Assembly: GCA_905479605.1 (NCBI GenBank)
Contig: CAJQNC010000065.1
Location: forward strand, 1 to 40,372
From: an uncultured Alphaproteobacteria bacterium
GTDB lineage: Bacteria > Pseudomonadota > Alphaproteobacteria > UBA9655
Length of the DNA stretch: 40,372 nt
Direction of reading: 5' to 3'
The stretch's first letter is position 1. The number at the start of each line of letters is the position of its first letter. Under the pieces are notes generated by a model. It was given only the letters and a program-made list of their open reading frames with translations, searched no databases and was not told the origin of the DNA. Both the position numbers and the translations under genes were made by a program. Shown piece by piece: positions 2,624 to 25,312 of this stretch.

Positions 2624-5600
2624 TTACACAACTCTAAATACGGCCGTTCGCCACTCTGAGCCTACGAATTCAACACATGGATTCTTCAAAACCTCGCTAT
2701 CTACAAACTGCTTAACATCTGGCCAATCTTCTACTCTATAATCATCAAAGATAATATATCCGCCTTTATTGACAAAAGGCATGTATATATCAAAATCGCT
2801 CTTAACACCTTCATATGAGTGGTCTCCATCAATAAGCAAGACGTCACACTTTGTTTTTGCAACGTGATCAATTGTATCTTGATTTGTACTAAGAGACTTA
2901 AGAAGGGTGTAATCAGATTCAGGAACATTAAGCTTCATGTTATAATGAAATATATTTTCATCTACGATCTCACCTGTCATCATATCTTTTTTATGACTAC
3001 CATAATAACCATCCAAGGGGTCAACGGCAATCACGTGAACATGTTTAGAGAACAGTCGAGAACAGTCAGCCAAAGAGGCCAAACAAATACCAAATAACGA
3101 CCCAATTTCAACAACCACTAAATAATTTTGTTTAATCGACATCGTAACCAAAACACGTAATACGATGTCTTCAATTGCAGTTGCCAAGCGTCCACGGGAC
3201 AAAAACTCAATTCGACATATTTGATGAGCTAGGTAAGATAGCTGCTTTTCTGTGTATTCTAAGCATAACAATTTTGACCACTTCTCAACGAGCAATTTGC
3301 TATTTCTGAAAGTCAGATACCTAGAGAATGGCTGAAACCTTAACATATTTGCACTAGATGATACGCTTTGGACTAGTTTTAAATGCTCTTTAGAGCTTTT
3401 AGATGCAATGTCAGAAAATAAATCACCTACAGAACCTGAGAGGTTTATCTGTTGGTCTTTCAATGTGGTCAATTTCTTGTTTAGGTTTTTTTGATGCTCT
3501 TCAATATGAAATAACTTTTTTTGAAAGGAATCTAACAAAGACTTTTCTAAAACATTTGCCGTATTCCTCTTCAATAGAAGGACACATAAAGCAAACATAA
3601 AAGATATTAAAAATATATTAGGTGCCCATTCGAGAAAAACATAAGCTAAACAGGAATAGAATAATATAAAAGACAGTGCAATAATAACTTTTTTCCTAGT
3701 GAAAAAGTTCGAAGTTAAAATCCTAATGAAGTTCTTCACTGAGGATTTATATTTATTCGGTATACAACTAGCTATTTTTACATACAAAAAGTCCGAACTT
3801 TTTTTAATGAATTGTGATGATGCAGAAGTGAGACCTGATATTATCTTATGAAACTGCACCTTGGGTAAAGACTGATGGTGTTCATTCATTATCTTTTTGT
3901 TGTTATGGCTTGGTTCATCCTGAATATTTACAATCCGATTCCGTTCATTTAAGTTGTTATTATCGCTCTTGGGAATAGGACTTGCACTGCCCTTAGCGAT
4001 CTGAAAGGCCTGTATTTTTGTTGCAGATCTTGACTTTAATAAACTGTTTAAATGCTTTTCAATTTCCCGCTCTCCGGGATCTTCGAGAAAAGCTAGCAAG
4101 TTACCCCAAGATTCTTCATTAGCCAACTCACAAGGGTACTTATTTAAGGCGCACCAATCATGAGGGATACCATATCGGATTATAGGATGCCACTCACTAA
4201 CATATACTGTATAGCCTTTTTCAGCTAAATAATCACAAATATATCTCCAATTATGGCCAAGTAGTTTTGTTTTTGCATCTTCAAATTCACATTCAATTAC
4301 GGCAGGTTTATGAGTTTCCCATGGCACCCCCCGAAGAACAGAAAGGTCGTAACCTTCGACATCTATTTTTAAGAAGTCAATTTTAGTTATACTATTCTCT
4401 TTGATAATATTTTTAACTGTAGTTACATCTACTTCACCCGCCTCCTCATGACTTGGATGAAATGCCAACATTCCTGAAATACCCGTACTAACTTCAGAAG
4501 TGTAAAAAGCAACATTTTTTTGTTCACAGTCAGCAACAGCACGAGTATCTATAGTAACGTTTTCCTTATTTCCATGTAAAGCTATGAGCTTTTTACGATT
4601 TATAGAGTTTGGCTCAAAAGCAAGAACTCGCCACCCATTTTGAGCAAATGGTGACAAAGATGAGCCGTGTTGAGCACCTACATCAACCATGACTTTTTTT
4701 GAGTTACTGTCATTTATCATTAATCGAGAAATTAAATAGGTTTCATCAAAGTGGACGTTCTGTCCACGAGAATAACTACTGCAGAGGTGTGCCATTTCTT
4801 GCTCCTTTAATTGAATAAGTAATTGTGTCCAACTGTTTTTAGAGAAATAATCCTCTTGTGATTTAGATATACGCTCATAGTAACCTTCAATATTTTCAGA
4901 TATTTTCTTAATCGCAGTTAAAAGAGACTCATATCCATCAATAACTTCTCCAATACCATACTGTTTTACTACTCCCGCAAGCCATGTATTGCACATCACT
5001 ATTATTGGCTTTCCTAAGTAAAGAGCATCTATAACTAATCCCGATGTACGCTCACTAAATGCTGAAGCTTGGTAGGGTAAAACTACTATATCAAGGCTGT
5101 CTAAAAATTTAATGAACTCATCTAAAGTCAGTTCTTGTTCACATATATGACACCCTGACTTACGTATTAGATTTATATGATGCTCAATGAAGCTTAAGTG
5201 CTTGGGGCTAGGGTTAAATACTGATGCTCGAACGAAGATATCAAGATGTAAATCATTCTCTATAGCAACCCGTTGGACGAAATCAGACGTAAGTTGAAAA
5301 CCTTTAGACTCACTAACCCCACCAGGAAAACCTACTCTGATAGGATCATTACATTGTTTTTCCTTATTAAGCAGTTTCAAAGCAGATTTATCAGAAAAAG
5401 TTGTGCTTGGATGCCTTATTGGTGCAAGCTTTACTCCATAATGTAACTCAAAGGAATTTGAAAACTGCTCGGTAGGAGCCAATAATCTAACCCACTTAGA
5501 CTGAACTAGGCTCGCTACAATTGGTTTCCATTTTGAAATATATTCTGGGCTTTTATATTCATCAAATGAAGTCCAAAAAAGATTTACTACAGCCGTAACC

Positions 5601-7147
5601 TCATGAAAGTGTTGAATTACCTCGGAAATGGCTTGCGCAACAGCGATACTACCACAATATACATACACCAACACCCTTTTATGCCCTTCTAAAACCTTTT
5701 TCAGTGAAGCCTTAAAAGTATACTTAAAGTTGGGAATGTCAGCACCCTGCTTATAAATCCACGAATAATTATTAAAAGTCGGCAAAAAAAACTTTCTTAT
5801 TGATCCATCAGAGCACTGTGTAGATCCAAAGACGTAATATGGATGATTATTTATCTCGCAGACTTCCGCTAACCTATCATTATACGCCAGCCAATGGCCA
5901 GATTCGTCTTTACCGTCTGGATCTATCATCACGACAGCTAGCTCATCAGAACTCTCTGATGTTGTCGTTGCAATATTTGAGGTGATTTTTTTTAAAGCTG
6001 GGATATATGACTTGGTTATATTATATATTTTCTTATTTTTTTTAATATAATTAGTTAGCCAAACATCCAGAACCTTACAATGCTGTTCGTAATAATCATC
6101 GTAGTCTATATCGAAAAAGGCAGGATGAGCACATTTAATCTCACTCATTTTTTCATTTAACTGAGAAGCCTTATCATGCTTCCAAAAATAAGAGTTTTCT
6201 TCAGAAGGGCGTCCATCACAGCCAAATATTCGTGTTTCTTCAAAAAATGTGGATGCGAGCGGAAGTAAAAAAAGTGTAAGCACATTGGCTGTAGTTGCAA
6301 CATAAAAATCACTACCAAGGTCTAAATTGGGAATTTCTTGCTTTTTAAAAGGAACGCCAGCTATTCTCTCATGAAACCGCTTAGGCAAGTAAGTAATGTA
6401 TATGTGATAATCTCGTATAGGAACAATTAGATCGGCATCATAGCGATCTAAAGCCTCTATTAACTCACTCCTAAACTGACCGGCATAACTCGATGGTCCT
6501 GCATGAAAAATTGGGTCAGCCACAACAACCAAGCGGGGCTGCAGCCTATCCATCAACTTGCGATTTCGCACCATACTGTTACAAGCGATCGAAACACCAT
6601 CCGAATAATCATAATCACTTGCTTCACTTAGGTTTGGACCAGTGCCAAAAATATAACCCTTCGAAGATTTACACCGAGATAATATGCCATTGAAAACATC
6701 TTTAGATTTTAAGACATTCCTTGTCATTTCATCTTCAAAAAGATTTCCAAGCATTAAATAAAAAGAGCTGGCAAATCTTTCTTTTTTATGGTCAACCTTA
6801 ATAATTTTTTTATTCTTTATTAGAGGCCTATAGAGACTGTCGGGGATTTTATCTGCTTGGCTCAGGTCAGACTCAGTAAGAAATACCACATCACAATCGA
6901 TAAAATCGTTTAGCGCCAGTTCTGCTAGCTTCGCTTGTTTAAATACAATAGGTAGCTTACCTACGCAGTCAGATATTGCTTGATCCAAATGATCAGGAAT
7001 TTCACCAATCTGAAGGTTTTCAATATCATGAAATATAGTAATCTGTTCGATTTTGTCTGAAAATGGATAAATATACCAATGAAGTCTATAATAATGCTCA
7101 GTGAGCTCATCTTGATTTTCAAAAACTGGGATCAAAGCTATTTTCAT
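2624..7147 (-). CDS. 1507-aa multidomain protein: DUF115/MptE-like + GT1/GT4-type glycosyltransferase + FkbM methyltransferase + TM hairpin/coiled coil + C-terminal class I SAM methyltransferase
   Basis: GYIFGTGPNLSEASDYDYSDGVSIACNSMV (DUF115-like); VGFPGGVSESKGFQL...FSERTSGLVIDALYLGKPIIV (GT-B); VMVDVGAQHGSSLSPFAQNGWRVLAFEPN...KIDFLKIDVEGYDLSVLRG (FkbM); VIIALSFILFYSCLAYVFLEWAPNIFLISFMFALCVLLL (TM pair); VVVEIGSLFGICLASLAD...VLLIDGDHSYEGVKSDFDIYMPFVNKGGYIIFDDY (SAM MTase). Confidence 0.85.
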   Translation of the reverse strand: MKIALIPVFENQDELTEHYYRLHWYIYPFSDKIEQITIFHDIENLQIGEIPDHLDQAISDCVGKLPIVFKQAKLAELALNDFIDCDVVFLTESDLSQADKIPDSLYRPLIKNKKIIKVDHKKERFASSFYLMLGNLFEDEMTRNVLKSKDVFNGILSRCKSSKGYIFGTGPNLSEASDYDYSDGVSIACNSMVRNRKLMDRLQPRLVVVADPIFHAGPSSYAGQFRSELIEALDRYDADLIVPIRDYHIYITYLPKRFHERIAGVPFKKQEIPNLDLGSDFYVATTANVLTLFLLPLASTFFEETRIFGCDGRPSEENSYFWKHDKASQLNEKMSEIKCAHPAFFDIDYDDYYEQHCKVLDVWLTNYIKKNKKIYNITKSYIPALKKITSNIATTTSESSDELAVVMIDPDGKDESGHWLAYNDRLAEVCEINNHPYYVFGSTQCSDGSIRKFFLPTFNNYSWIYKQGADIPNFKYTFKASLKKVLEGHKRVLVYVYCGSIAVAQAISEVIQHFHEVTAVVNLFWTSFDEYKSPEYISKWKPIVASLVQSKWVRLLAPTEQFSNSFELHYGVKLAPIRHPSTTFSDKSALKLLNKEKQCNDPIRVGFPGGVSESKGFQLTSDFVQRVAIENDLHLDIFVRASVFNPSPKHLSFIEHHINLIRKSGCHICEQELTLDEFIKFLDSLDIVVLPYQASAFSERTSGLVIDALYLGKPIIVMCNTWLAGVVKQYGIGEVIDGYESLLTAIKKISENIEGYYERISKSQEDYFSKNSWTQLLIQLKEQEMAHLCSSYSRGQNVHFDETYLISRLMINDSNSKKVMVDVGAQHGSSLSPFAQNGWRVLAFEPNSINRKKLIALHGNKENVTIDTRAVADCEQKNVAFYTSEVSTGISGMLAFHPSHEEAGEVDVTTVKNIIKENSITKIDFLKIDVEGYDLSVLRGVPWETHKPAVIECEFEDAKTKLLGHNWRYICDYLAEKGYTVYVSEWHPIIRYGIPHDWCALNKYPCELANEESWGNLLAFLEDPGEREIEKHLNSLLKSRSATKIQAFQIAKGSASPIPKSDNNNLNERNRIVNIQDEPSHNNKKIMNEHHQSLPKVQFHKIISGLTSASSQFIKKSSDFLYVKIASCIPNKYKSSVKNFIRILTSNFFTRKKVIIALSFILFYSCLAYVFLEWAPNIFLISFMFALCVLLLKRNTANVLEKSLLDSFQKKLFHIEEHQKNLNKKLTTLKDQQINLSGSVGDLFSDIASKSSKEHLKLVQSVSSSANMLRFQPFSRYLTFRNSKLLVEKWSKLLCLEYTEKQLSYLAHQICRIEFLSRGRLATAIEDIVLRVLVTMSIKQNYLVVVEIGSLFGICLASLADCSRLFSKHVHVIAVDPLDGYYGSHKKDMMTGEIVDENIFHYNMKLNVPESDYTLLKSLSTNQDTIDHVAKTKCDVLLIDGDHSYEGVKSDFDIYMPFVNKGGYIIFDDYRVEDWPDVKQFVDSEVLKNPCVEFVGSEWRTAVFRVV

Positions 7148-7521: not shown

Positions 7522-8237
7522 CTATAGCTTCCTGCCCCCCCAAAGAAGAGATGTCGATTGTGCTTTTGCCCTAAGCTGCTTAAGCTGAGGGATCATTCGA
7601 TTCCAATTTCTCATCACACTATCAGGGTTAGTCGCAAAGCCAGGCTGAAATGAGGGGAACTTGCTCATAGCTATCTGTATTTCTTCAAGAGGCTGAAACT
7701 TTCCGGAAGTAAAGGCGCTATTATAAAACTTCAAACGCTGCAAATTATAATAACCAGGCTCAGTATCATTATCATTTGCAAGGTAAATATCAACTGCATG
7801 CACCATAAGTCCTCCTGGCTTCAATATCCTCCAACAATCATCAATGAAATGATCAAACTCATCATTTTTGATGTGCTCTACAACGGATACTGAAAACACA
7901 ACATCAAAAGATTCAGACTCGATATGCTCTTTCGAGTTACCTATTAAACAGTAAATATTATTGACACCTTCATGACCAATTTTACCTACAGGACCATTGC
8001 CTTCCCCTTCAAATGGTTCAATATTAAACACTTCGTTCTTCAACGACAACCACTCCAAGATACGAGTATCGCCACCGCCAATTTCTGCTATCTTCTTTTC
8101 AGTACAGCCATCTAAGTAATCAGCAACTACTGAATCCTGAATACTTTTTAAATGCCAGGGTTCAATCTGCTTTATTTTTTTTCTATTCCATTATCTAGTG
8201 CATCCCAATAGCTATCTTTAGTTACAAACCGCAACAT
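7522..8237 (-). pseudogene. class I SAM-dependent methyltransferase with a -1 frameshift in an A8 tract (or sequencing error / phase-variable)
   Basis: ATG at 8237 preceded by ggagaaattaag; MLRFVTKDSYWDALDNGIEKK then stop. Adding one A to the A8 run (T8 on + strand, 8175-8182) joins to IKQIEPWHLKSIQDSVVADYLDGCTEKKIAEIGGGDTRILEWLSLKNEVFNIEPFEG.., continuous with ORF 7522..8058 (SFDVVFSVSVVEHIKND, LKPGGLMVHAVD). Confidence 0.75.
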
Positions 8238-8273: not shown

Positions 8274-9377
8274 CTACACAAACTTCTCATACAAGCCCAT
8301 ATAGTTTTCTAACATGATAGAAGACTTGAAAGCTAGGATATATCTTTTTCTTGAAGCTTCACCAAACTGTCTAATCTTTATTTCATCTTTCCATAACATT
8401 AACATACATTGTGCCAGGTCCACAGAATCCCTCGGCTTTATTACGTATCCAGTCTCACCATGAACATTGATATACGAAGTCCCCGTTCCAATTTCACATG
8501 AGATCATTGGCTCACCAAACATTGCAGCCTCAACTAACGACAATCCAAAAGCCTCTGAGCGTAAGTGGGAAGGGAATACAAATGCATAACAAAGCTTCAG
8601 GAGCGTTACTTTATCTTCATCTGAGACATGCCCCAAGAAGTGAATATTCTTGAGCCCATATTCATTTGCTTTCTGCTTCAGAGCATTTTCTTCAGGACCT
8701 GTTCCTATGATAACAGTTGGATAATCCACACCCTTCAATGCATCCAAGAGGATGTGCAATCCCTTATAATAACGTAATACTCCTATGAATAAAAAGAATT
8801 TGCCGCCTACCCTTTTCTTCCAATAATCAAGCTTGTTAGCAGGGGGCTCAGGATAGTTTGATTCCTCCAAACCAAGTGGAATTACAGAAACTTTATCTGC
8901 ATACTCCTGAAGAGTTCCACTGGTTTGAACATAATTGGGTGATGTAGCTATAATTTGGTCGACTGATGACAAAAATCTTTTTTGGAGGGGCTTATAGAGC
9001 TTAAGAAGCTTTCGTTGGCGAACAACATCAGAGTGGTAAGTAACAATTGAGGGTTTGCTTGGACAACAGGTAAGATGAAGTAGGTCAGCAAATGGGTATG
9101 GGTAATGATAATGTATAATGTCTGCTTTTTGGGACAGTTCGCGAAATTTATAAAATGCCTTCAAGGAAAAAGGAGTGGAAGCCACTTCGAACAACGTCGG
9201 TTGATAATGAACTTTATAACCCCCACCATCAACAACTTCTCTTGGCCCGCGATTGAGAGCTAGAACTTCTACGTTAGCCCCCTTCTCTGCCGCACCTTTT
9301 GCAAGCTGGTGAATAACTTGCTCAACACCTCCCATAGAATGGGGAAGTGCCGCTTTATATACATGGAGAATGTTCAT
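8274..9377 (-). CDS. family 4 (GT-B) glycosyltransferase
   Basis: MNILHVYKAALPHSMGGVEQVIHQLAKG...FFLFIGVLRYYKGLHILLDAL...FPSHLRSEAFGLSLVEAAMFGEPMIS. Start assigned to internal Met at 9377 rather than 9434. Confidence 0.92.
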   Translation of the reverse strand: MNILHVYKAALPHSMGGVEQVIHQLAKGAAEKGANVEVLALNRGPREVVDGGGYKVHYQPTLFEVASTPFSLKAFYKFRELSQKADIIHYHYPYPFADLLHLTCCPSKPSIVTYHSDVVRQRKLLKLYKPLQKRFLSSVDQIIATSPNYVQTSGTLQEYADKVSVIPLGLEESNYPEPPANKLDYWKKRVGGKFFLFIGVLRYYKGLHILLDALKGVDYPTVIIGTGPEENALKQKANEYGLKNIHFLGHVSDEDKVTLLKLCYAFVFPSHLRSEAFGLSLVEAAMFGEPMISCEIGTGTSYINVHGETGYVIKPRDSVDLAQCMLMLWKDEIKIRQFGEASRKRYILAFKSSIMLENYMGLYEKFV

Positions 9378-9384
9378 AGGTAGA

Positions 9385-10668
9385 CTAGGCAGTTTTCTGA
9401 TCAGAGCTGGAATAACTCCCACTATTAGCTCCACCGGTAAGCTCCCATCTATGAGGTAATGTTATTGCCCCCCAGAAACGTGGCTTGTGTTGAAGCACTT
9501 CAAGGGCTGAAAGCTCTTGCCTATACAAAATTTCAGGCCCATCTGAAATACTTAGATTACCAATATAAAATCCCGGGTTTAATGGCAGTGAAGGTATTTT
9601 AAGAATAAAATTGTTTTTACTTCCTGGAGTAATATCAAAAGAATCATCCTGTAGCTGCGTTGAAAATCCAGTCACATATACTCCTTCTTCTGTCCACAAA
9701 GGAACGCCCATAAAGAAATTACGTGGCTTATGCTTAACACAGAAAGAGGCCTTAAAATACAAATCTTGCCCTGCTATAACCTTAGTAATAGGATTCCCGT
9801 CCGCATCACACCAGAAATGTTCTATATCCTCAATAGCATTCTCATTAAAAAATTGAGGCTTCAAAATATGAGCTTGTTTGGTCTCTGGCGTATCACTTTC
9901 TGGAAACTTCAAGCTCTCATAAACCTCCACGGCCTCCTTAGGATCACCTAGAAAAACAACCTGCCCCTTATTCAAGACAATCACCTTGTCGCAGAAATCG
10001 GTAATCGTCCCCATAGAGTGAGATACGAATACAAAAGCTGAATTCTCACGCATCGAACGGATATGGGCTAGACATTTTTGGCGAAACTGAAAGTCACCCA
10101 CAGCTAAGATTTCATCGATCAGTAGTATGTCAGGACAAACAGAGATCATAATTGAAAAGGCCAAACGCATCTGCATACCAGAACTATAAGTAACAACTGG
10201 GGCATCAATAGCATCACCCAACTCAGCAAAGTCAACAATCTGATCAAATGTGGCTTGCATTTCCTCGGGGCTGCGACCCAACATGGCTCCTCTCAGAAAA
10301 ATGTTTCGCTTTCCACTCGCTGACATCTGAAAACCGGCAGTCAAGTCAATCATAGAGACTACACTGCCTTGCATATATACTTCTCCGGCATCGGGAAGAA
10401 TCTGCCCTGCTAGTATTCGAAGAAGGGTGGTCTTTCCTGCACCATTGAGGCCAATCACTCCTAGGGCTTCGCCCCGCTTAAGAGAAAAACTTACATCTTT
10501 AAGTGACCAAAACTCACCCGGACGAAGTTTATCGGTAGCCAAACTCTTTAAACTCAGAAGCGCACGAGTAAAGTCACTTGCAAACCTTTTACGAGTAACA
10601 GCAGGCCTCCGGGATTGAATCTTACCCAAATTATTCACTTCTACGATAGAGTCTACAGACTTAAACAT
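9385..10668 (-). CDS. wzt: polysaccharide ABC transporter ATP-binding protein with C-terminal Wzt_C-like domain
   Basis: Walker A GLNGAGKTTLL, signature YSSGMQMRLAFS, Walker B DILLIDEILAVGD; ~170-aa beta-rich extension (FKASFCVKHKPRNFFMGVPLWTEEGVYVTGFST..PGFYIGNLSISDG). Confidence 0.9.
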   Translation of the reverse strand: MFKSVDSIVEVNNLGKIQSRRPAVTRKRFASDFTRALLSLKSLATDKLRPGEFWSLKDVSFSLKRGEALGVIGLNGAGKTTLLRILAGQILPDAGEVYMQGSVVSMIDLTAGFQMSASGKRNIFLRGAMLGRSPEEMQATFDQIVDFAELGDAIDAPVVTYSSGMQMRLAFSIMISVCPDILLIDEILAVGDFQFRQKCLAHIRSMRENSAFVFVSHSMGTITDFCDKVIVLNKGQVVFLGDPKEAVEVYESLKFPESDTPETKQAHILKPQFFNENAIEDIEHFWCDADGNPITKVIAGQDLYFKASFCVKHKPRNFFMGVPLWTEEGVYVTGFSTQLQDDSFDITPGSKNNFILKIPSLPLNPGFYIGNLSISDGPEILYRQELSALEVLQHKPRFWGAITLPHRWELTGGANSGSYSSSDQKTA

Positions 10669-11519
10669 TAAACAAGACCTCGGATTCTGTATTCCATAAC
10701 ATAAAACATTCGCAATGCTTTCACAAATATAACAACGGAAAGTATAGACATGATTATGTATGAAGGGGTGAACATCAATTCTCCCTGAAAAGCAAGGTAG
10801 CGGCTGGCTTCGATAAAAACATAAAACGGGTTAAACTGGTTTAGGAAACTGAGCAGGCCACCTTGTGCCAAAGGAAATAATACCCCACTTATGAAAATGC
10901 CATACTGAAGAACTATCGTGGTCACTCGCGAAACGTCTTTATAGATAACATTCATAAGGCTCAATAATAGTCCCAGACCACCAAAGAAGAAAATTGCAGG
11001 TAGCATAGCTAAAGGCAAGAATAGTACACCCCAGTGGGGCCAACTCTGAGTTGCTAGAACAATCACTGAAACTAACCCCAACCTCACAGAAGTTTCGAAC
11101 ACCAAGTTAGCAAAACCAGCCATTATCGCAGCAATCAATGGGAAGGCCGTCTTCATAGAATCCTTTTGCCGCGACTGAACAACTTGGATAGGAATCTGAA
11201 TACATCCAGCAAAAACAAACCACAGTGTTACACCGTAGGTTATAAAAACGGCTCCGTCGACTCCTTCAAAGGAGGGAAAAACACGGAAACGAGCCAAAAA
11301 CCAATAAATCGTCAAAGGGACGAGAGGTAAAATATAATTCCATAGAGCACCAAAACCCGTTCCGGCAGAGGACGCGCGGAAGTTCTCTTTAAAAACGATT
11401 CGTATATGCTTACGGCTTTTCCAGATTTCCTCAAACAAATGCCAAATAGAATTTTTTACACTCTCCTGACTTCTGCCTGAGGGTGTTATGGTACGCAAAT
11501 GGTTGGTTTGTGAAGTCAT
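10668..11519 (-). CDS. wzm: polysaccharide ABC transporter permease (ABC-2 type)
   Basis: FKENFRASSAGTGFGALWNYILPLVPLTIYWF, multiple TM segments, NPFYVFIEASRY; 1-bp stop/start overlap with the ATPase gene. Confidence 0.88.
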   Translation of the reverse strand: MTSQTNHLRTITPSGRSQESVKNSIWHLFEEIWKSRKHIRIVFKENFRASSAGTGFGALWNYILPLVPLTIYWFLARFRVFPSFEGVDGAVFITYGVTLWFVFAGCIQIPIQVVQSRQKDSMKTAFPLIAAIMAGFANLVFETSVRLGLVSVIVLATQSWPHWGVLFLPLAMLPAIFFFGGLGLLLSLMNVIYKDVSRVTTIVLQYGIFISGVLFPLAQGGLLSFLNQFNPFYVFIEASRYLAFQGELMFTPSYIIMSILSVVIFVKALRMFYVMEYRIRGLV

Positions 11520-12454
11520 GCTGCTTTCACCTGTAGGAAGTTGAATATTGTCTCTATCGCCAACCGACTTGTATGCTCAACGGCATCAACTGTATTCGAA
11601 GCATTGTGGGAACCCAAAATACAGCGAGGGTGAGAGCGTAGCGCAGATGCCGAGGATAAAGGCTCTTCCTCGAAAACATCTAAAGCCGCAGAATAAACTT
11701 GTCCATTTTGAAGGGCTTCAATTAATGCCTTTTCATCGATGAGCGGTCCACGCCCCACATTAACAATACGAACACCCTGCTTGGCCTTAGCAAGAGCACT
11801 CTGATTAAGCATATGGCGACTATCCGCACTTAGGGCGCAATTCAAAACAATAAAGTCAGCTTCTTCAAGTCTATTTGGCCATTCTGCAATCTGAATTTCT
11901 TCAGAAATCAAATCCTGATTCACATAAGGATCATACCCAATCACCTGCATATCAGAAGCCAACAACCTCTTAGCAGTCTGCCGCCCAATATCCCCAAGCC
12001 CAACAAGCGCTACTTTTTTCCCAGCGAGGGATATTCCGCAGGGTTTTGGCCATTGCCCTTGGCGAATACCAGCATCAATTTGGAATGTTTCTCGGGCGAG
12101 AGCAATAACATAGCCCATCGCTATATCTGCAACTTCTCTGCCAAACACATTGGGAGTATTCTTGATGGGGATCCCTAAATCACGACAGGCATCAAAATCA
12201 ACATTATCTACCCCTACTCCCCACTTAACGGCAGCTTTAAGAGCGCCCCTTTTTCCTGCTTCAAAGACTTCTCTAGTGGCCGGGTCATCACCAATGATCC
12301 ACCCATCATGCTGAGGAACCAACTCTTTAAGTTCCTCCACAGAAAGAGTCTGTACAACGTTTGGTGTGACACACTCGATACCAGCCTTCTCAAAGATGGG
12401 GCGGAAACTGTCGGCCATCCCTAACATTGGAGGGCATGTAATCATAACTTTCAT
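11516..12454 (-). CDS. D-isomer-specific 2-hydroxyacid dehydrogenase (phosphoglycerate dehydrogenase-like)
   Basis: KWGVGVDNVDFDACRDLGIPIKNTPN, VALVGLGDIGRQTAKRL, NVGRGPLIDEKALIEALQNGQVYSAALDVFEEEP. Confidence 0.92.
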   Translation of the reverse strand: MKVMITCPPMLGMADSFRPIFEKAGIECVTPNVVQTLSVEELKELVPQHDGWIIGDDPATREVFEAGKRGALKAAVKWGVGVDNVDFDACRDLGIPIKNTPNVFGREVADIAMGYVIALARETFQIDAGIRQGQWPKPCGISLAGKKVALVGLGDIGRQTAKRLLASDMQVIGYDPYVNQDLISEEIQIAEWPNRLEEADFIVLNCALSADSRHMLNQSALAKAKQGVRIVNVGRGPLIDEKALIEALQNGQVYSAALDVFEEEPLSSASALRSHPRCILGSHNASNTVDAVEHTSRLAIETIFNFLQVKAA

Positions 12455-12457
12455 ATC

Positions 12458-13168
12458 TTAACTCGCTGACTTAATTATATTTTCGGCATTTTCTAAAAAA
12501 TACCGATGGGCCGCCAATGCAAAGTCCCAGTCCTCCGGGGTATCGATATCTATTGATTCATACTTTGGCGTCTCATACATCATAGGACTTTCACCAATAC
12601 GGGCAGTCGTTTTCTCGAAACTGTCTTTTGTAAAAAGATAAAGGTTTGAGTTTTCTTCAAACCAAGGCTCAAGGTCTTGTGTTCGAACAAGGCATGAAGG
12701 GTCATGATTAACTGGTGAACAGTCCTCACGATAGAAACGGGTTTGAATTTTATCAACTGTAAACAAAGAGTCTGCATTGCCCTGTTCCAAAGCTGCATCA
12801 AATTTATTCAAAGCATCAGAAATAGTAGAAGCACTTATGAGGGGATTGGTTGTGTGCGTCATGAGATAAATATCGCTATCCACATTTGAAACATCATCCT
12901 CAATGACCTTGTTCATGGACACAAAGTCACCACAAATTTCTTCGGGACGATCTCGAATTTCAATTCGATCAGTTGGCACAAGTCCGTTCTCAGCTAAAAC
13001 AGAACGAGCATCCGTATTGATAATAACCTTATCAACCATAGGAACTGATAGCAAATTATCTAGAACCCAGCGAAACAGGGGCTTTCCATTAAAATCTCTA
13101 AAGTTCTTACCCTTAACTCGTTCGCTATTGGCTTTCATGGGTAATAATGCAACCACTCGCCTGCTCAT
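12458..13168 (-). CDS. acylneuraminate cytidylyltransferase family protein (NeuA-like)
   Basis: ALLPMKANSERVKGKNFRDFNGKPLFRWVLDNLL...HTTNPLISASTISDAL...YESIDIDTPEDWDFA. Confidence 0.88.
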   Translation of the reverse strand: MSRRVVALLPMKANSERVKGKNFRDFNGKPLFRWVLDNLLSVPMVDKVIINTDARSVLAENGLVPTDRIEIRDRPEEICGDFVSMNKVIEDDVSNVDSDIYLMTHTTNPLISASTISDALNKFDAALEQGNADSLFTVDKIQTRFYREDCSPVNHDPSCLVRTQDLEPWFEENSNLYLFTKDSFEKTTARIGESPMMYETPKYESIDIDTPEDWDFALAAHRYFLENAENIIKSAS

Positions 13169-14063
13169 GGCTTAACTCCTTTGTTTGCGGATAAAAATAG
13201 GCCTCTTTCTGAGCATGAGACAATTTGCGGTGCTCGTGATTTCCCACATAGCTACCCCAATACTGAAAGAAGCGGTACTGGATAATTTCAGAAAAACACT
13301 TAAAGAATTTTCCACTTCGAAGCGCTGAATACGAATCTATAAGAACACTTGAAAAGGTGTATCTTATCATATCCAAAAAGGTAACGTGTACCTGAGGCAT
13401 AATCTTCTGCAGTGCTATGGATTCTCGCTCGAAGCGCCTCTTGACTTGTGCCCATGTCTCATCATGATAGTGATACACACAGGCCTCTGCTATATACGCA
13501 ATCTTACCACCATCTTCCACTAAACGCTGGGAAAGCTCCATATCCTCAAGACCAGTAAGTTCCTCGTCAAAAAGGTATTTTTTCCAAGTGCTCTTTAAAA
13601 TAGCAGAGTTAGCATTATTGCAATAAAAGCCTACCTGTGGAATCTGGCTTTTCTGAGGGTAATATTTTTCAAAAATTCTACACTCACTGTAGTAACTTTC
13701 AGGACCACCAATTTGACGACCATAGCTATATTCAGCATGACCATCTTCTAATGGCTTACATAAATTGTAAATCCACCTTTTATCTGTTGGAACGCAATGA
13801 CCACTAATGATAATAAGTGCATCACCCGTTGCAGCCTCACAACCTATATTTAAAGAACGGCCAAAAGAAAATTCTTCTTTAGTGATATGCACGACCTTAC
13901 AAGCGTGCTTCTTTGCGATCGAAAGAGTATCATCGGTTGAACCTGAATCAACAACAACAACCTCACACCCCCAAGACTCAATCTCCTGAGATTCAACAGA
14001 ATCTAGAAGCTCATCAAGGTACTTACCTTCATTTAGGGTTCTAATAACTATACTTACCTTCAT
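13125..14063 (-). CDS. family 2 glycosyltransferase
   Basis: VSIVIRTLNEGKYLDELLDSVESQ...VVVDSGSTDDTLSIAKKH...GLEDMELSQRLVEDGGKIAYI. Confidence 0.92.
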   Translation of the reverse strand: MKVSIVIRTLNEGKYLDELLDSVESQEIESWGCEVVVVDSGSTDDTLSIAKKHACKVVHITKEEFSFGRSLNIGCEAATGDALIIISGHCVPTDKRWIYNLCKPLEDGHAEYSYGRQIGGPESYYSECRIFEKYYPQKSQIPQVGFYCNNANSAILKSTWKKYLFDEELTGLEDMELSQRLVEDGGKIAYIAEACVYHYHDETWAQVKRRFERESIALQKIMPQVHVTFLDMIRYTFSSVLIDSYSALRSGKFFKCFSEIIQYRFFQYWGSYVGNHEHRKLSHAQKEAYFYPQTKELSHEQASGCIITHESQ

Positions 14064-14860
14064 ACAGCCTTTCCGTGCGCTTTTGTACTGAATTCATATA
14101 CCAAATTAGAATCCAGACGCAGTTCAAAGTCGGGATTCATACTTTTATATACTGCTCTGATCTCTTCTGGGGTAACACTATTTACCTCAAACATATCCCA
14201 ATGTACAGGAATTACTGTACCTATTCCTATATCCTCTGCCAGGCTAAATGCATCTCGAATAGACATATTTCCTATGATATTCTGGCGATCACGATAGAAA
14301 TTTTGTTCATTCACTGGCAAGAGTGCTATATCTATATTCTCAAAGCCCTTTAAAGCTTCCAGCACTTCATCAGTAAGCCCCGTATCTCCCGCAATATAAA
14401 TTGTATAATTGCTAAACTGCAGAATGTATCCAACAGCACTTAAGTTTCCCTCAGGATCTCTTTGTATCTTAGGATGAGCAGCCGGAACAGTGCATACTCT
14501 AACATTATCCCTTAAGACTACCCAATCTTCCTTACAAGGATGAATTCTTGACTCTTCAATTTCCCACCCCTTAAGTATCTCACAAACTGGAACAGGGCCG
14601 ATAAATTGGCAATTAGGAGAAGCTTTAGAAAGGGCTGGCAATGTATGGGGATCACAGTGATCAATATGCTCGTGAGTAATAAGTATCCAATCTAGATCCG
14701 ATATATCTTCTGGTTTATAGGGTATAGGAGTTAATCGCTTCAAGTCAGAAGAGTCGAGTTCCTGAACTGAATGAGAAAGGTAAGGATCAATACAAATTGA
14801 AATATTGGGCCCCTTAATAAAACACCCAGACTGCCCAAGTAATTCAATAGAATAATCCAC
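14060..14860 (-). CDS. MBL-fold metallo-hydrolase (UlaG-like)
   Basis: LLGQSGCFIKGPNISICIDPYLS...ILITHEHIDHCDPHTLP...YIAGDTGLTDEVLEAL...PVHWDMF. Confidence 0.85.
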   Translation of the reverse strand: MDYSIELLGQSGCFIKGPNISICIDPYLSHSVQELDSSDLKRLTPIPYKPEDISDLDWILITHEHIDHCDPHTLPALSKASPNCQFIGPVPVCEILKGWEIEESRIHPCKEDWVVLRDNVRVCTVPAAHPKIQRDPEGNLSAVGYILQFSNYTIYIAGDTGLTDEVLEALKGFENIDIALLPVNEQNFYRDRQNIIGNMSIRDAFSLAEDIGIGTVIPVHWDMFEVNSVTPEEIRAVYKSMNPDFELRLDSNLVYEFSTKAHGKAV

Positions 14861-15831
14861 TACGCCCTCAGTTTTTGTTGAACCAGTCCTTTGTATTCGT
14901 CGTAAACGCGTTTTAAACCATCTTCAAGAGAAATACAAGGACTCCAGCCGAGGCTCAACAGAAGAGAGCTATCCATAAGCTTACGAGGGGTTCCATCAGG
15001 CTTGGAGGCATCAAATGCAATAGCACCTTCATAACCGATAGTCTTTGCCACCGTCTTAGCAAGATCAGCAATGGTAACGTCTTCCCCATACCCAACATTA
15101 ATGTGTGAACACATTGGCTGGGTATGATCAGTATAAATCTCTTTATCTAAATTCATAACATGTAAGCATGCTGAAGCCAGATCATCTACATGTAGGAATT
15201 CTCGCTTGACCTTACCCGTCCCCCAAACTTTGACTTCAGGCAAACCACTGATATGAGCCTCATGAAAACGGCGAATAAGCGCCGGAATAACGTGGCTATT
15301 CTCAGGGTGATAGTTATCTCCGGGACCATACAAATTAGTAGGCATTACTGATCTATAGTCCACGCCATACTGGCGGTTATAACTCTCACACATTTTAATA
15401 CCAGCAATCTTAGCAATAGCATATGGCTCATTAGTGGATTCAAGATAGCCAGACAGCAATGTACTCTCTTTCATTGGCTGAGGTGCTTGCTTGGGGTAGA
15501 TACAACTAGACCCCAGAAACAACAGTTTTTTAACGCCAGCTTCCAGAGCAGAGTTAATAATATTAGATTGGATCATCAGGTTTTGGTATATAAATTCAGC
15601 TGGATAAGTATCATTTGCATGGATACCACCCACTTTAGCAGCGGCAAGATAAACCTGATGAGGTCTCTCATGCTGGAAAAATTCATGCACTTCCTGTTGA
15701 CTCAATAAGTCAAGCTCGTTGCGAGAGCGAGTAATAATATTGGAAAATTTGTTTTGTTGGAGCTGCCGAACAATAGAGGACCCAACCATGCCGCGATGGC
15801 CAGCTACAAAAATTTTAGAAGAACTGTACAT
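14860..15831 (-). CDS. fcl: GDP-L-fucose synthase
   Basis: [95 protein letters not shown]. Confidence 0.95.
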
Positions 15832-15833
15832 TG

Positions 15834-16907
15834 TTAACCCCTGGCTGTCTTAAATCCACTCTCAGAGAGAAGCGCATCACTTTGCGCCAGTTGAAGATCG
15901 GTCCTTACCATTTCAGATACAAGATCTTGGAAAGAAATTTTAGGTTCCCACCCTAGCTTTTCTTTTGCAAGAGATGCATCCCCCAATAAGGTTTCAACCT
16001 CTGTAGGACGGAAGTAGCGCGGATCTACTTGTACAATTTTCTTCCCATTCCAAATACCCACCTCATCAATACCTTGCCCTTGCCACTCAATGGTCATCCC
16101 TAATTCTTTAGCAGCAGCATTAACAAAATCACGAACACTGTACTGCATGCCAGTAGCAATTACGAAATCTTGAGGTTGGTCCTGTTGCAGCATAAGCCAT
16201 TGCATTTCCACATAATCCCGAGCATGGCCCCAATCACGTTTTGCATCCATATTCCCAAGATATAAGCAGTCTTGCAAACCTAGGCTAATTTTAGCGAGGG
16301 CTCGAGTAATTTTACGAGTTACAAAAGTTTCACCCCGAGTAGGAGATTCATGATTAAACAAAATCCCATTACAACCATATATTCCATAAGCTTCACGGTA
16401 ATTTACTGTAATCCAGTAAGCATAGAGCTTAGCAACTGCATAAGGACTTCTTGGGTAAAAAGGCGTCTTCTCAGTTTGAGGAATTTCTTGAACTTCACCA
16501 TAAAGTTCAGAAGTTGAAGCCTGATAAAAACGTGTTTTCTTCTCTAAACTAAGAATACGTATAGCTTCAAGGATCCTCAGCGTTCCTAAAGCATCAGAAT
16601 TAGCAGTATATTCAGGCTCTTCAAAACTTACAGCAACATGAGACTGAGCAGCTAGATTATAAATTTCATCTGGTTGACACTGCTGAATAATTCTTATTAA
16701 GCTACAGCTATCTGTCATATCCCCATGATGTAATGTCAGCTTTACATTATCCTCGTGAGGATCCTGATAAAGATGGTCTATTCGATCAGTATTAATCAAT
16801 GACGACCTACGCTTAACGCCATGCACTTCGTAGCCTTTATTTAATAAAAACTCAGCTAGATAAGCTCCATCTTGACCTGTAATACCTGTAATTAATGCTT
16901 TCTTCAT
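15834..16907 (-). CDS. gmd: GDP-mannose 4,6-dehydratase
   Basis: [93 protein letters not shown]. Confidence 0.97.
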
Positions 16908-17920
16908 GCGACTTTATCCTTACTAATTTGAAAGTTTTGAAAATACCAAACACTAGAACACATTTCATCTAGGTCACGTTGTGCCTTCCAACCCAGCTCT
17001 GTGTAGGCTTTATCTGTTTTTGCGTAACAAACAGCAACGTCTCCGGCACGCCTAGCTGTTACTCTATGTGGTAAACTTTGGCCAATTGCTTTTTCGAAAG
17101 TTCGAACCATCTCAAAAACGCTATGTCCCTGCCCAGTACCTAAGTTAATAGCATGCCACCCCTTCTGATTATCCAGGTAATTAATAGCAGCTCCATGCCC
17201 TTCAGCTAAATCACAGACATGGATATAGTCTCTAATAGCCGTACCATCTTCAGTTGGATAATCATCACCAAATATATTAAGTTCAGGGAGAGCCCCCGAA
17301 GCCACACGAGCTATATAAGGCATGAGATTATTGGGGATACCACTTGGATCCTCTCCGATCAAACCAGAAGGGTGTGCTCCAACTGGATTAAAATAACGAA
17401 GACATACTATTCTCCATTCAGAGTTGGAACTAGAGACGTCCTCTAACATTTCTTCAATATGTAACTTTGTTCGACCATAGGGGTTCGTAGCAGAAGTAGG
17501 ATGTACTTCATCAAGAGGCAGGTACTCAGGCTCACCATAGACAGTTGCACTTGAGCTAAAAACTAACTTATATACACCACTATCGTTCATAGCTTGTAGT
17601 AAGCTAATGGCTCCTTGAACATTATTAGAAAAGTATTCAACTGGCTTTTCAAGCGATTCCCCAACAGCTTTTAAACCTGCAAAGTGTACAACACTATCAA
17701 TACGATAATCTGCAAGCATTTTACTCAATAGTGGTGTATCCCGCACATCGCCTTCAATAAAGGCAAAAGGCTTACCAGTAAGCGCCTGCAAACGCTCTAA
17801 GACATCCAGGGATGAGTTTGATAGGTTATCAAGTAATATAACTTTATGGCCAGCTTCAGTAAGCGTCACGGCTGTATGGCTGCCAATGTACCCCAATCCT
17901 CCAGTCAGTAGGATATTCAT
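16904..17920 (-). CDS. galE: UDP-glucose 4-epimerase
   Basis: [73 protein letters not shown]. Confidence 0.96.
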
Positions 17921-17932
17921 ACCTAATCCTTT

Positions 17933-19372
17933 CTATGCAGCACGGCCATATTGATCCTCAAAACGAACAATGTCATCTTCTCCTAGATAGTTTCCAGTTT
18001 GCACTTCTAATACTACTAATAGTTCATCGCCTATATTTTCCAGCCTATGCTTACATTTTGCAGGTATAAAGGTATGCTCTTGAGGAGATAATATAAACTC
18101 TTGAGTACCATTAACTACCTTTGCTTTGCCCTGAACAACTACCCAGTGCTCACTACGATACTCATGTAATTGAAGGCTCAACTTAGCTCCCGGTACAACC
18201 TCAATCCTTTTTACCTTATGAAAGGCATTTTCCTCAAGCACTGTATAGGTACCCCAGGGACGAGTAACTGTTGAGCGTTCTTTAGATTCCTTACGTTCCG
18301 AGTCTTTTAGTTGCTTATATAGACTTTTCACATCTTGAGCCGACTCTTTAGAAGCAACCAGCAACGCGTCTGGAGTGTCTGCAATAATGACTCCATCAAG
18401 GCCAACGACACCTACAAGGCGGTCTCCAGCATTGACAATACAGTTTTTAGAGTCCTGGATAACAACATTTCCTGAAATATTATTTCCCTCGTTATCTTTT
18501 GGTGATAATTCTCCATAAGACTTCCAACAGCCTATGTCACTCCAACCAATATCGCAGGGAACCACAGAGGCAACTTCAGTTTTTTCCATAACAGCATAAT
18601 CAATAGACTCGGATTCAACTTTGCTATATTTGGACGAATCCAGGTCCCATACAAATTCCTCACCGGCTTCTGAGCGAGGATTAATGCTAAGGCTTTGAAT
18701 TGTACCTTCAAGTATCTCAGGACACAGTTGCTTCATCTGATCCAACATCGTGCCTGCTCGAAAACAAAACATTCCTGAATTCCACAGAAAATTTCCTGAG
18801 TCCAAGTAATCTATTGCATTCTCCAAAGGTGGTTTCTCAATAAATCGAACCACTTCGTGCCCCTTAGCCTCAATGTACCCATAACCAGTAGCCGGGAAAC
18901 TGGGCTGAATGCCGAAAGTTACTATCCGCCCAGAAGATGCTAAATTAACTGCAGTTTGAACAGCACTCTCAAAGGCTTTTAGATCTTGAACCAATTGATC
19001 TGATGGCAATACCAATAAGATTGCATCCACAGAGTAACAATTTTGCACTAAGTAAGACGCTGCAGCTATAGCAGCAGCAGTATTCCTAGCACAAGGCTCT
19101 AACAAATATGATGTCTTGATATTTTCTGTATTAATTTTGTCAAGCTCGAGCTGAACTTTATGAAAAAGGTTTTTAGATGTGACGGTTAGAATTTCTGAAA
19201 TATTTTGTAACCCAGCTCCTCGGAGAAAAGCGCTTTGCAAAAAGCTAGTCGATCCATCAACTCGAAGAAATTGCTTTGGGTGTTCCCCTCTTGACAAAGG
19301 CCATAAGCGCGACCCCTCGCCCCCACACAATATTGTGGGTATGATTATCTCTTCACTCCTAGAATAAGGCAA
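17933..19372 (-). CDS. manC: mannose-1-phosphate guanylyltransferase / mannose-6-phosphate isomerase
   Basis: IPTILCGGEGSRLWPLSRGEHPKQFL, GDRLVGVVGLDGVIIADTPDALLV, RPWGTYTVLEENAFHKVKRIEVVPGAKLSLQLHEYRSEHWVVVQG. Confidence 0.96.
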   Translation of the reverse strand: MPYSRSEEIIIPTILCGGEGSRLWPLSRGEHPKQFLRVDGSTSFLQSAFLRGAGLQNISEILTVTSKNLFHKVQLELDKINTENIKTSYLLEPCARNTAAAIAAASYLVQNCYSVDAILLVLPSDQLVQDLKAFESAVQTAVNLASSGRIVTFGIQPSFPATGYGYIEAKGHEVVRFIEKPPLENAIDYLDSGNFLWNSGMFCFRAGTMLDQMKQLCPEILEGTIQSLSINPRSEAGEEFVWDLDSSKYSKVESESIDYAVMEKTEVASVVPCDIGWSDIGCWKSYGELSPKDNEGNNISGNVVIQDSKNCIVNAGDRLVGVVGLDGVIIADTPDALLVASKESAQDVKSLYKQLKDSERKESKERSTVTRPWGTYTVLEENAFHKVKRIEVVPGAKLSLQLHEYRSEHWVVVQGKAKVVNGTQEFILSPQEHTFIPAKCKHRLENIGDELLVVLEVQTGNYLGEDDIVRFEDQYGRAA

Positions 19373-20604: not shown

Positions 20605-20840
20605 AACGTTTTATGGCTTCTTTCCAGTTATAAATATTGCTCTCATTAGCTCATGGAATTTACTCACTTTGAGGTATCAATTGCAATAGAATCATATTGA
20701 ACCCTCTAAAAAGTTACCTCTTCGACACAAAATCTCAGAGTTAGCGTGTGTTACCCGGGCAGTAGAGTATGAAAAATACATAGCTATTTCCAGCATATTT
20801 TGATTATAATGCGCAACGTATTAACGAAAGGAATCAAAAC

Positions 20841-21419
20841 ATGTCAGTACTCGTAGGAAATAAAGCACCTAATTTTAAAGTAAAGTCCGTAACGAAGAAC
20901 CAGATTCAGGATATTGAATTGGAACAGTATCGTGGGAAATATGTTCTCCTGTTCTTTTATCCCCTAGATTTTACCTTCGTTTGCCCCACCGAACTTCATG
21001 CTTTCCAGGAAAGCTTAAATGAGTTTGAAAGCAACGACTGTGTCGTACTAGGTTGCAGTGTTGACAGTCACTTTTCACACTTAGCATGGTTAAACACACC
21101 AAAGAATCAGGGTGGAATCCAAGGCATTGAATACCCACTTCTTTCTGACCTTGGTGGACATATTGCCAAAGACTATGACGTATTTAGCGATGATCAAGTG
21201 GCCTACCGTGGCCTCTTTCTCATTGATAAAGAAGGGACCGTTCGCCACCAGGTTGTCAATGACCTTCCCCTAGGCCGAAGCGTTTCCGAAGCTCTGAGGA
21301 CACTCCAAGCTTTACAGCACGTTGAACAACATGGCGAAGTTTGCCCAGCTAACTGGAGCAAAGGTGATACAGCCATTGAAGCAACTTCTGAGAGCGTCGC
21401 AAATTATTTAAGTCGCTAA
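20841..21419 (+). CDS. 2-Cys peroxiredoxin (AhpC/TSA family)
   Basis: GKYVLLFFYPLDFTFVCPTELHAF; C-terminal HGEVCPANWSKGD; SD gaaagg upstream. Confidence 0.96.
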   Translation: MSVLVGNKAPNFKVKSVTKNQIQDIELEQYRGKYVLLFFYPLDFTFVCPTELHAFQESLNEFESNDCVVLGCSVDSHFSHLAWLNTPKNQGGIQGIEYPLLSDLGGHIAKDYDVFSDDQVAYRGLFLIDKEGTVRHQVVNDLPLGRSVSEALRTLQALQHVEQHGEVCPANWSKGDTAIEATSESVANYLSR

Positions 21420-21432
21420 CCGTTAACCTCTC

Positions 21433-21458
21433 ACCAGCCTCTCTTTCGAGGGGCTGGT
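21433..21458. terminator. hairpin downstream of the peroxiredoxin gene (possible terminator, no clear T-tract)
   Basis: ACCAGCC (21433-21439) pairs with GGCTGGT (21452-21458) 14 bp after the stop codon. Confidence 0.35.
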
Positions 21459-21478
21459 AATTCGCAGAAAATATAACT

Positions 21479-21740
21479 TTACTTGCCTGACTCGTTCCAC
21501 CTACCACATTTACCGTTCCAAACATCATTTAAATTACAGGCTTGCCTTTGGCTTCTGTTGTTCAAATAATCATTACATTTTTCATCATCAGCTGTATTTC
21601 CACTAACAGTACCACCGGATAGCATACAGTAATCTTTAACAGCAGCATACTGACGCACTGAATTAATATATACAGACCTTCCATAATTGAGCCACTAGGA
21701 TATTTTCCATTCTTAATTTTTAAGAAACCATATTTGTGCT
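21479..21740 (-). pseudogene. degraded minus-strand ORF, unknown Cys-containing protein
   Basis: Minus strand reads KYGFLKIKNGKYPSGSI, then a frameshift into YGRSVYINSVRQYAAVKDYCMLSGGTVSGNTADDEKCNDYLNNRSQRQACNLNDVWNGKCGRWNESGK* (TAA at 21479-21481). Protein-like composition but no intact start. Confidence 0.4.
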
Positions 21741-21773
21741 ACAATATTAAAACAATAATAAGAGGGGCACGCT

Positions 21774-22607
21774 ATGATCCGCAGCATTCTTGTCGCACTA
21801 GATGACACTGATTCAAGTCAAACCGCACGTCGTTTTGCTATTGCAATGGCTAAACGCCGAAAGGCAAAGTTATCTGGCTTGGGCGTTGTCGACAAACCAT
21901 GACTTACAGCACCTGAGGCTGTTCCTATTGGGGGAGCTGCATTTAAAGCAGACCTCGATCAGCAGCTTGTTGAAGATGCCAAAAAGTACATTCACAAAGT
22001 CGAACGCACATTCAAAAAAGAATGTGTAGAAAATGATGTCTCTTGTTCAATAATAGATACGACGGGGGAACCAACCCATGAAATTTCCAAGCACCTCGTT
22101 GATCATGATATTTTAGTCGTTGGCAAGGATGCGGACTTTCACTTTGCAGGTACATCCGATACATCGAGCGTAGTGAAAGCGCTTTTAAATAGTAACCCTC
22201 GCCCGCTCATATTGACTGGCACATCTGAGGATACAGGTAAAGATATAATTGTTACCTATGATGGCTCTCAATCCTCATCAAGAGCCATTCACCTTGCTAT
22301 ACTTTTGGATCTCTTTAAATTTACAACACCTCATTTGGTGACTGTAGCCTCTTCTAAAAAGAAGGCCAAAGACACCATGAAGTTAGCTATTCAACTCTTT
22401 AATAATCATGGCATTGAGCCCGTCCTTCATCCCATTGAGAGTTCGAACCGGCCCTCAAGCGAGATTATCAACCTGGCTGACAAGCTTGATACAGCAATGA
22501 TTGTAATGGGAGCATGTGGAAATAAGGGTATCCAATACCTATTCTCAGGGTCAGTTTCCCGAGATTTGCTCAAAGGAACACAGTATCCCTTTTTTACTTA
22601 TCACTAG
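21774..22607 (+). pseudogene. two-domain universal stress protein (UspA family) interrupted by an in-frame TGA
   Basis: ATG at 21774: MIRSILVALDDTDSSQTARRFAIAMAKRRKAKLSGLGVVDKP*LTAPEAVPIGGAAFKADLDQQLVEDAKKYIHK...; TGA at 21900-21902, same frame as ORF 22173..22607 (IIVTYDGSQSSSRAIHLAILL..VMGACGNKGIQYLFSGSVSRDLL). Confidence 0.8.
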
Positions 22608-23601
22608 TAGCGTCTTGCTTACTGCGGATTCGTCGCCAATTTGAATGATTTTTGTTGTGCTCAGCAAGATTTGAAGCAAATACATGACTATGTGGTCCAT
22701 TGGCTACAAAATAAAGATAGTTTACAGGCGCAGGATTCATGACTGCTTGCAACGCTTCTTTACCTGGATTAGCAATAGGTCTAGGCGGTAGGCCAGGATT
22801 TAAATAGGTATTATATGGGCTAGGAGTCTGCAGATCTGACTTTAGCAACCGCTTTCCCAAACTACACTTTCCCTTCGTTAAACCATATACAACTGTTGGG
22901 TCGGCTTGCAGAGGCATACCCAACTTTAGTCGATTAAGAAATACCGCAGCAATAAGGGGCCTCTCGGCTGCCGCCGCTGTTTCCTTTTCAACAATTGATG
23001 CAAGGGTAATAAAATCCATTTTAGATTTCAGTATCGTGTCTGCAGGCCGGCTCTCCCACAACTTATCAACGAGTAATGACATCTTCCCTTGAACTTCCTC
23101 TAGGATCGTTGATCGGAGCATTCCTCGTTGAAATGTATATGTCTCGGGCATTAATGTTCCTTCGGCAGGAACGTCTGTAATTTTACCCTCTAACTCTGGG
23201 ATACCATTGAGAACATCTACAAACTGAGCTGATGTCATTCCTTCTGGAAGAGTCACCCGATACAAAATGACATCACCATCTGTAAATTTTTTTAAAATAG
23301 CGGCAGGACTCATATCAGCTGAGAGAACATATTCTCCGGCATGAATGCGGGTTGCATCACCGAACAGACGGGCCATAAGTGAAAAAAATCGGGGATGAAA
23401 AATGATACTCTTAGCCTCAAGTTCATTTGCAATAGTTTGAAGGGGCCATCCCTGATGAACAACAAATGTTTCACCTGGGGCATCAACTCTGTGGCTTGAT
23501 GAAAACCAATAACCCAGGTAGGCAGCAGATGCTCCTAGTAACAGGGCACAAAAAAAGGCCGCTATAAAGAGGCCTTTCGGTAGGGTCAAACGGAGCCACA
23601 C
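22594..23601 (-). CDS. mltG: endolytic murein transglycosylase MltG
   Basis: GETFVVHQGWPLQTIANELEAKSII...TLPEGMTSAQF...LASIVEKETAAAAERPLIAAVFLNRLKLGMPLQADPTVVYGL...YNTYLNPGLPPRPIANPGKEALQAVMNP. Confidence 0.97.
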   Translation of the reverse strand: MWLRLTLPKGLFIAAFFCALLLGASAAYLGYWFSSSHRVDAPGETFVVHQGWPLQTIANELEAKSIIFHPRFFSLMARLFGDATRIHAGEYVLSADMSPAAILKKFTDGDVILYRVTLPEGMTSAQFVDVLNGIPELEGKITDVPAEGTLMPETYTFQRGMLRSTILEEVQGKMSLLVDKLWESRPADTILKSKMDFITLASIVEKETAAAAERPLIAAVFLNRLKLGMPLQADPTVVYGLTKGKCSLGKRLLKSDLQTPSPYNTYLNPGLPPRPIANPGKEALQAVMNPAPVNYLYFVANGPHSHVFASNLAEHNKNHSNWRRIRSKQDATSDK

Positions 23602-23603
23602 GG

Positions 23604-24875: not shown

Positions 24876-24900
24876 TTTCTATAATAACGCAGCAGACATT

Positions 24901-25137
24901 TTACGCAGCGTTCGCTTGCACATAGTCGATTGCATTCTTTACAGTTACAATCTTTTCTGCGGCATCATCAGGAATTTCACAACCAAACTCCTCTTCGAAT
25001 GCCATTACAAGCTCAACAGTATCTAGGCTATCCGCGCCTAGATCGTCAACAAAGCTTGCGTCATCGGTTACTTTATCCTCTTCCACACCAAGATGGTCAA
25101 TTACGATTTTCTTCACTCGAGAAGCCACATCACTCAT
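24901..25137 (-). CDS. acpP: acyl carrier protein
   Basis: 78 aa; [46 protein letters not shown] with DSL phosphopantetheine site. Confidence 0.99.
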
Positions 25138-25312
25138 AATTTGTTTCCTTAGTCAATTTTAGTCTAAATATGGTAGCAGATAGACTCACTATCTGCTTTT
25201 CATAGGGTTGGTAACATACTTTTTTTCCTCTGACTAGCAAAGAATTTCAAAAAATGTTGATTCTGCTTATATTTCAATTGGTTACAGCTTATGTATTAAT
25301 AAATTACATGCG

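Follow-up and report, generated by a model that had tools for sequence, protein, structure and literature searches.

The window, which here means the whole 40,372-nucleotide stretch at positions 1–40,372 of contig CAJQNC010000065.1 (assembly GCA_905479605.1) from an uncultured alphaproteobacterium of the lineage UBA9655, carries a giant multi-module open reading frame (ORF) of 1507 amino acids at positions 2624 to 7147. The ORF lies on the minus strand, a detail missing from a preliminary description of this locus, and is supported by the ORF call and by an identical architecture in other genomes. That description had proposed four enzyme-like modules within the single ORF, and all four were recovered, the DUF115-like one in divergent form. 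From the N terminus these are a DUF115/MptE-like module (residues 1–390, positions 5978–7147), a GT-B glycosyltransferase (residues 391–785, positions 4793–5977), an FkbM methyltransferase (residues 786–1045, positions 4013–4792) and, beyond a transmembrane hairpin and a short spacer, an O-methyltransferase of the MT24/TylF type that is proposed to cap the glycan chain (positions 2627–3295), all on the minus strand.

Modules of the Giant ORF

The FkbM module matches both PF05050 (residues 822–980, E 2.4e-19, 70.5 bits against a cut-off of 22.7) and TIGR01444 (77.9 against 37.7 bits) above their curated cut-offs, and its motifs are conserved. The C-terminal domain, described earlier as a class I S-adenosylmethionine (SAM)-dependent methyltransferase, is matched by PF13578 (Methyltransf_24, hereafter MT24) at residues 1346–1470 (E 2.3e-14, 54.6 against 26.3 bits). 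Its profile matches TylF-type sugar O-methyltransferases, and its acidic motif residues are invariant in our alignment A2. Matches of the profile or of the structure model include the carbohydrate O-methyltransferases MeT1, NovP, the mycinamicin enzyme, CalS11 and SpnH together with other O-methyltransferases, and MeT1 is the best fold match of the predicted structure (E 1.2e-8), among many cation-dependent O-methyltransferases.

The glycosyltransferase proposed at about residues 400–780 is weak in the window copy and clear at the family level. Pfam matches of the segment are weak (Glycos_transf_1, E 0.0011), homologues give clear scores, and the family profile matches the structure of the mannosyltransferase WbaZ-1 (E 3.9e-4). 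The DUF115/MptE-like assignment of the N-terminal module held in profile-profile comparison and failed in a direct domain search. Residues 1–390 of the window copy have no Pfam match, with PF01973 (MptE-like/DUF115) below its cut-off, and only two of the eight members of alignment A1 (the window module and seven relatives) match PF01973, with a best E of 0.0022. Nevertheless, hhalign relates the module to MptE-like modules of the same clusters (probability 87%, E 4e-6). The structure model of this module (pLDDT, a per-residue confidence score, of 83) has as its best PDB fold matches the GT42 sialyltransferases CstII and CstI (E 8e-4) at low TM-scores of only about 0.2–0.5, and a GT42-like fold may be present.

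The two adjacent membrane helices noted previously correspond to hydrophobic segments near residues 1154–1172 and 1174–1192. They form a hairpin (residues 1152–1192, positions 3572–3694, minus strand) with basic flanks on both sides. Both SAM-using methyltransferases should be cytosolic, and the basic flanks agree with this placement. A periplasmic location for the rod that follows was considered unlikely, because SAM-dependent modules lie on either side of an even number of transmembrane segments and both flanks are basic. The coiled-coil-like stretch of the preliminary description is borne out as a short spacer (residues 1193–1262, positions 3362–3571, minus strand) with heptad-range periodicity above that of shuffled sequences (z 2.5) and a single predicted helix of 47 residues (1204–1250) in a region modeled with low confidence.

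Recurrence in Other Genomes

A scan of genome contigs yielded 27 loci. L numbers below designate individual loci. About ten other genomes, mostly Hyphomonadaceae-like, share the module order, and the proteins, including that of the window, range from 1507 to 2320 amino acids. In ten of the 27 loci (L024, L025, L026, L027, L030, L032, L034, L037, L038 and L047), one ORF carries FkbM, transmembrane hairpin, coiled-coil-like spacer and MT24 in this order, with a single transmembrane segment detected in the hairpin region of L047. Because the identical order recurs in independent genomes, it reflects neither chance nor mis-assembly, and an artificial fusion of separate genes was rejected.

No module is better conserved than FkbM, which nearly all relatives possess, even where MT24 is lacking. 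Modules upstream of FkbM differ from one relative to another and can be GT-B, GT2 or MptE-like. The modules are divided between two neighboring ORFs in L048, and L049 carries MT24 followed by a coiled coil, which is the order found in WbdD. L071 and L072 combine the hairpin, a helical rod of about 900 residues and MT24 in an ORF that has no glycosyltransferase or FkbM module. A sulfotransferase domain occupies the C-terminal MT24 slot in L023, and sulfotransferase-like ORFs lie downstream in L029 and L031.

At a threshold of E 1e-20, the C-terminal module occurs in one of 385 genomes from the window's class, namely its own, and in nine of 105 genomes in the family of the L026 genome, five of which apparently overlap loci already in the set. 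A search of plasmids with this module gave only generic methyltransferase matches. No description of the architecture was found in titles and abstracts on DUF115, FkbM/Wzt, rulers, the cytidylyltransferase cassette or Hyphomonas, a literature sample in which subscription journals are mostly uncovered.

Length and Repeats of the Spacer

The distance from the second transmembrane segment to MT24 is 93 residues in the window, 137 in L027 and 547 in L030. The coiled coil itself measures 70 residues in the window, the shortest rod of the set, 535 in L030 and about 900 in L071 and L072, with an overall range of about 70 to about 950. In most spacers a periodicity of 3.5–3.6 residues rises above that of shuffled sequences (z 1.4–8.0), and the pooled spectrum peaks at 3.5–3.55 residues. 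The sequences strongly suggest that the spacers are coiled coils, as scored with a home-made heptad measure whose cut-off was set by eye.

Within the L037 spacer, positions 11574–11873 consist of a 42-bp tandem array of 7.1 copies, each unit encoding 14 amino acids, or two heptads. This array is absent from the close homologue L047. The two proteins are 85% identical over residues 1–940, 81% in FkbM and 91% in MT24, as opposed to 48% in the spacer, where the alignment has 95 gap columns. L024 and L025 also contain repeats, in arrays of 21 bp and 33/66 bp. The 33/66-bp repeats of L025, at about codons 1304–1357 of its spacer, encode 11 amino acids per unit, which would suit a hendecad coil. Only short, low-score matches were obtained for tandem repeats in the window giant, with no recent repeat array seen.

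Linkage to Wzm and Wzt

The window encodes Wzt at positions 9385–10668 and the ABC-2 permease Wzm at 10668–11519, both on the minus strand. A Wzt_C domain at about 9388–9846 (residues 275–427 of Wzt) reaches the gathering score with 30.4 bits, and hence the window has the carbohydrate-binding type of C-terminal domain that accompanies coiled-coil terminators. A search for the same architecture beside wzm/wzt, as had been recommended, found these genes near every MT24 giant for which sufficient flanking sequence was available, ten in all (the window and nine others).

A profile search detected a homologous Wzt C-domain in all but one (L071) of 12 MT24-bearing genomes or loci, a total of 11, and in none of eight relatives without MT24 (Fisher p 7e-5, shared ancestry ignored). 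The eight are L023, L028, L029, L031, L033, L035, L036 and L046, with the search for L028, L036 and L046 covering the fetched flank only. L045, L049 and L072, in which MT24 is strongly diverged, were placed in neither group, and the grouping was made after the data had been seen. Ten of the 11 positives also contributed to the profile, such that for these the result is a consistency check only. Independent evidence comes from the alignable C-domains of these ten, from the L048 genome, a positive not used in the profile, and from the negatives.

Neighboring Genes and Genome Context

The remaining genes of the cluster named here are likewise on the minus strand. The MptE-like/DUF115 protein at 1036–1890 is a separate protein in the window, but its counterpart forms part of the giant in L024, L025, L026, L027 and L038. 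Separate MptE-like proteins in L045 (7705–8919) and L048 (7753–8922) have a C-terminal hydrophobic hairpin of their own. Two further glycosyltransferases are encoded nearby, one of family GT2 (240–1049) and one of GT1/GT4 type (8274–9434). Beside the giant, the frame of an MT11-like SAM methyltransferase gene (7522–8237) is broken at a run of eight A residues near 8175–8182, which could reflect either phase variation or a sequencing error. This gene is open in relatives, where it encodes 226–238 amino acids.

Upstream of Wzm is a conserved cassette of genes for a D-2-hydroxyacid dehydrogenase (11516–12454), a CTP_transf_3/PseF-like nucleotidyltransferase (12458–13168) and a GT2 glycosyltransferase (13125–14063). 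This cassette (11516–14860 in the window), often with an added short-chain dehydrogenase/reductase gene, is found together with the FkbM protein at most of the loci retrieved. Sugar-nucleotide genes (Fcl-like, Gmd, GalE-like and ManC) follow at 14860–19372. The G+C content is 36% in the giant and 37.5–41.5% across the glycan cluster (1–20700), compared with 44.6% at 20700–40372, a contrast that acquisition of the cluster could explain. The genome also encodes LpxC and a Wzy_C-family protein, and therefore a product linked to lipopolysaccharide is possible.

Discussion

We consider that the giant ORF probably encodes a membrane-anchored polymerase and terminator with a built-in ruler in a Wzm/Wzt polysaccharide pathway. 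The preliminary description had suggested a machine of this kind, extending and capping a chain within one polypeptide and feeding the adjacent exporter, and sequence comparisons favor it through the recurrence of the architecture, the variation of the spacer, the type of the putative cap and the C-terminal domain of Wzt. In such a system, the N-terminal glycosyltransferase modules, together with FkbM, would assemble the chain and methylate it at the inner face of the membrane, where these enzymes would be anchored by a hairpin whose two ends both lie in the cytosol. The coiled coil would exit the membrane and keep the C-terminal methyltransferase away from it. A chain would have to be long enough to reach this module before its end could be methylated, and this methylation would halt growth and label the chain for recognition by the neighboring Wzt through its C-terminal domain.

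An extension of this model treats the rod as a ruler that can be adjusted at the genetic level. Tandem DNA repeats that encode heptads would gain or lose copies and thereby reset the length of the surface glycan, and the cap would be exchangeable between methyltransferase and sulfotransferase together with a matching exporter domain. We regard this more elaborate scheme as possible though doubtful. The L037 and L047 proteins, which are alike outside the rod, would allow a direct test of the ruler idea.

Several observations weigh against the interpretation of the giant as a polymerase with a ruler and a cap. The predicted spacer of the window is only about 50–70 residues long, with its helix in the low-confidence part of the model, and the coiled-coil calls depend on the home-made heptad score, on periodicity and on incidental Pfam matches. 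The statistical association between MT24 and the Wzt C-domain takes no account of common descent. L071, whose MT24 is 38% identical, lacks a homologous Wzt C-domain, and the more diverged L045, L049 and L072 have no clear match to one. Neither WbdD nor WbbB is represented among the PDB matches listed. The glycosyltransferase modules may polymerize the chain or may build no more than an adaptor. In addition, the cap could be FkbM instead of MT24.

This last point leads to an alternative in which FkbM is the terminator, the C-terminal methyltransferase modifies the repeat unit or some other sugar, and the rod does no more than space domains or promote oligomerization. In its favor are the conservation of FkbM, even in relatives devoid of MT24, and the presence of two methyltransferases in each chain, which leaves the assignment of roles open. 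However, MT24 and the rod occur without FkbM in the same ORF in L071, L072 and L049, and it is the C-terminal slot, not FkbM, that is taken over by a sulfotransferase in L023. For these reasons, we view termination by FkbM as unlikely.

Alternatively, the protein may be a multi-enzyme glycosyl- and methyltransferase whose hairpin and coiled coil serve only for anchoring or oligomerization, with chain length determined by coupling to export as in Klebsiella O2a. A published account describes length control in O2a as export-coupled (PMC11231755), such that a ruler is not obligatory, and the short spacer of the window would be compatible with this arrangement. Yet the same account presents an extended coiled coil as a characteristic marker of the terminator strategy (PMC11231755). 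Moreover, spacer length is far more variable than the flanking modules, and a heptad repeat array alters the spacer between close homologues, which makes the export-coupled explanation improbable.

Finally, DUF115-family proteins include flagellin glycosylation factors and the FkbM-glycosyltransferase relatives L040–L044 have no Wzm/Wzt within the fetched flank, but it is very improbable that the giant glycosylates flagellin, an S-layer protein or another target that is not an exported polysaccharide, with Wzm/Wzt as mere neighbors, given that every MT24 giant with enough flank lies near Wzm/Wzt with a matching Wzt C-domain.

Among known proteins, MeT1, which gives the best fold match to the C-terminal module, is the mycobacterial methylmannose-polysaccharide 1-O-methyltransferase and blocks a polysaccharide precursor at one end (PMC9883506). 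Unlike the fused module of the giant, MeT1 is a separate enzyme and acts on the reducing-end 1-OH. WbdD of E. coli O8/O9a and Klebsiella O5/O3 resembles the giant in having a methyltransferase on a coiled-coil rod whose polymerase-side end is membrane-associated, and the O8 enzyme methylates sugar hydroxyls directly (PMC3482155). In contrast to the giant, WbdD carries its methyltransferase at the N terminus, lacks a glycosyltransferase and relies on an amphipathic helix. No WbdD structure is among the PDB matches listed for the giant (E up to 1) or for the MT24 profile (E up to 10).

Another close parallel is WbbB of Klebsiella/Raoultella O12, in which extending and terminating modules share one chain, separated by a coiled coil, in an ABC-transporter pathway (PMC11231755). 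The giant differs by its N-terminal extending modules, its transmembrane hairpin and its C-terminal methyltransferase cap in place of the N-terminal 3-deoxy-D-manno-octulosonic acid (Kdo) transferase of WbbB, and the PDB matches listed for it (E up to 1) include no WbbB chain. ORF6 of Klebsiella O7, compared by description only, is also a large multi-module protein with a terminator, coiled coil and glycosyltransferase modules, and alphaproteobacterial orthologues are mentioned (PMC11231755). Its methyltransferase-kinase is N-terminal and its GT2 modules are C-terminal, and the available text mentions no FkbM or DUF115-like module.

The established systems, including the single-polypeptide WbbB, use coiled coils as rulers and place the terminator at the far end of the coil from the polymerase (PMC11231755). 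Since the extending modules of the giant would be N-terminal and its cap C-terminal, it would reproduce this layout with the sequence order reversed, by means of a predicted spacer that is clear in relatives and short in the window. The giant looks like an analogue of WbdD and WbbB rather than a homologue found by sequence, that is, an apparently new version of a known kind of machine. Glycan length control is known mainly from enterobacterial models, and the present set offers an apparently independent solution in which the modules run in the opposite order, the anchor is integral to the membrane and the natural rods range from about 70 to about 950 residues.

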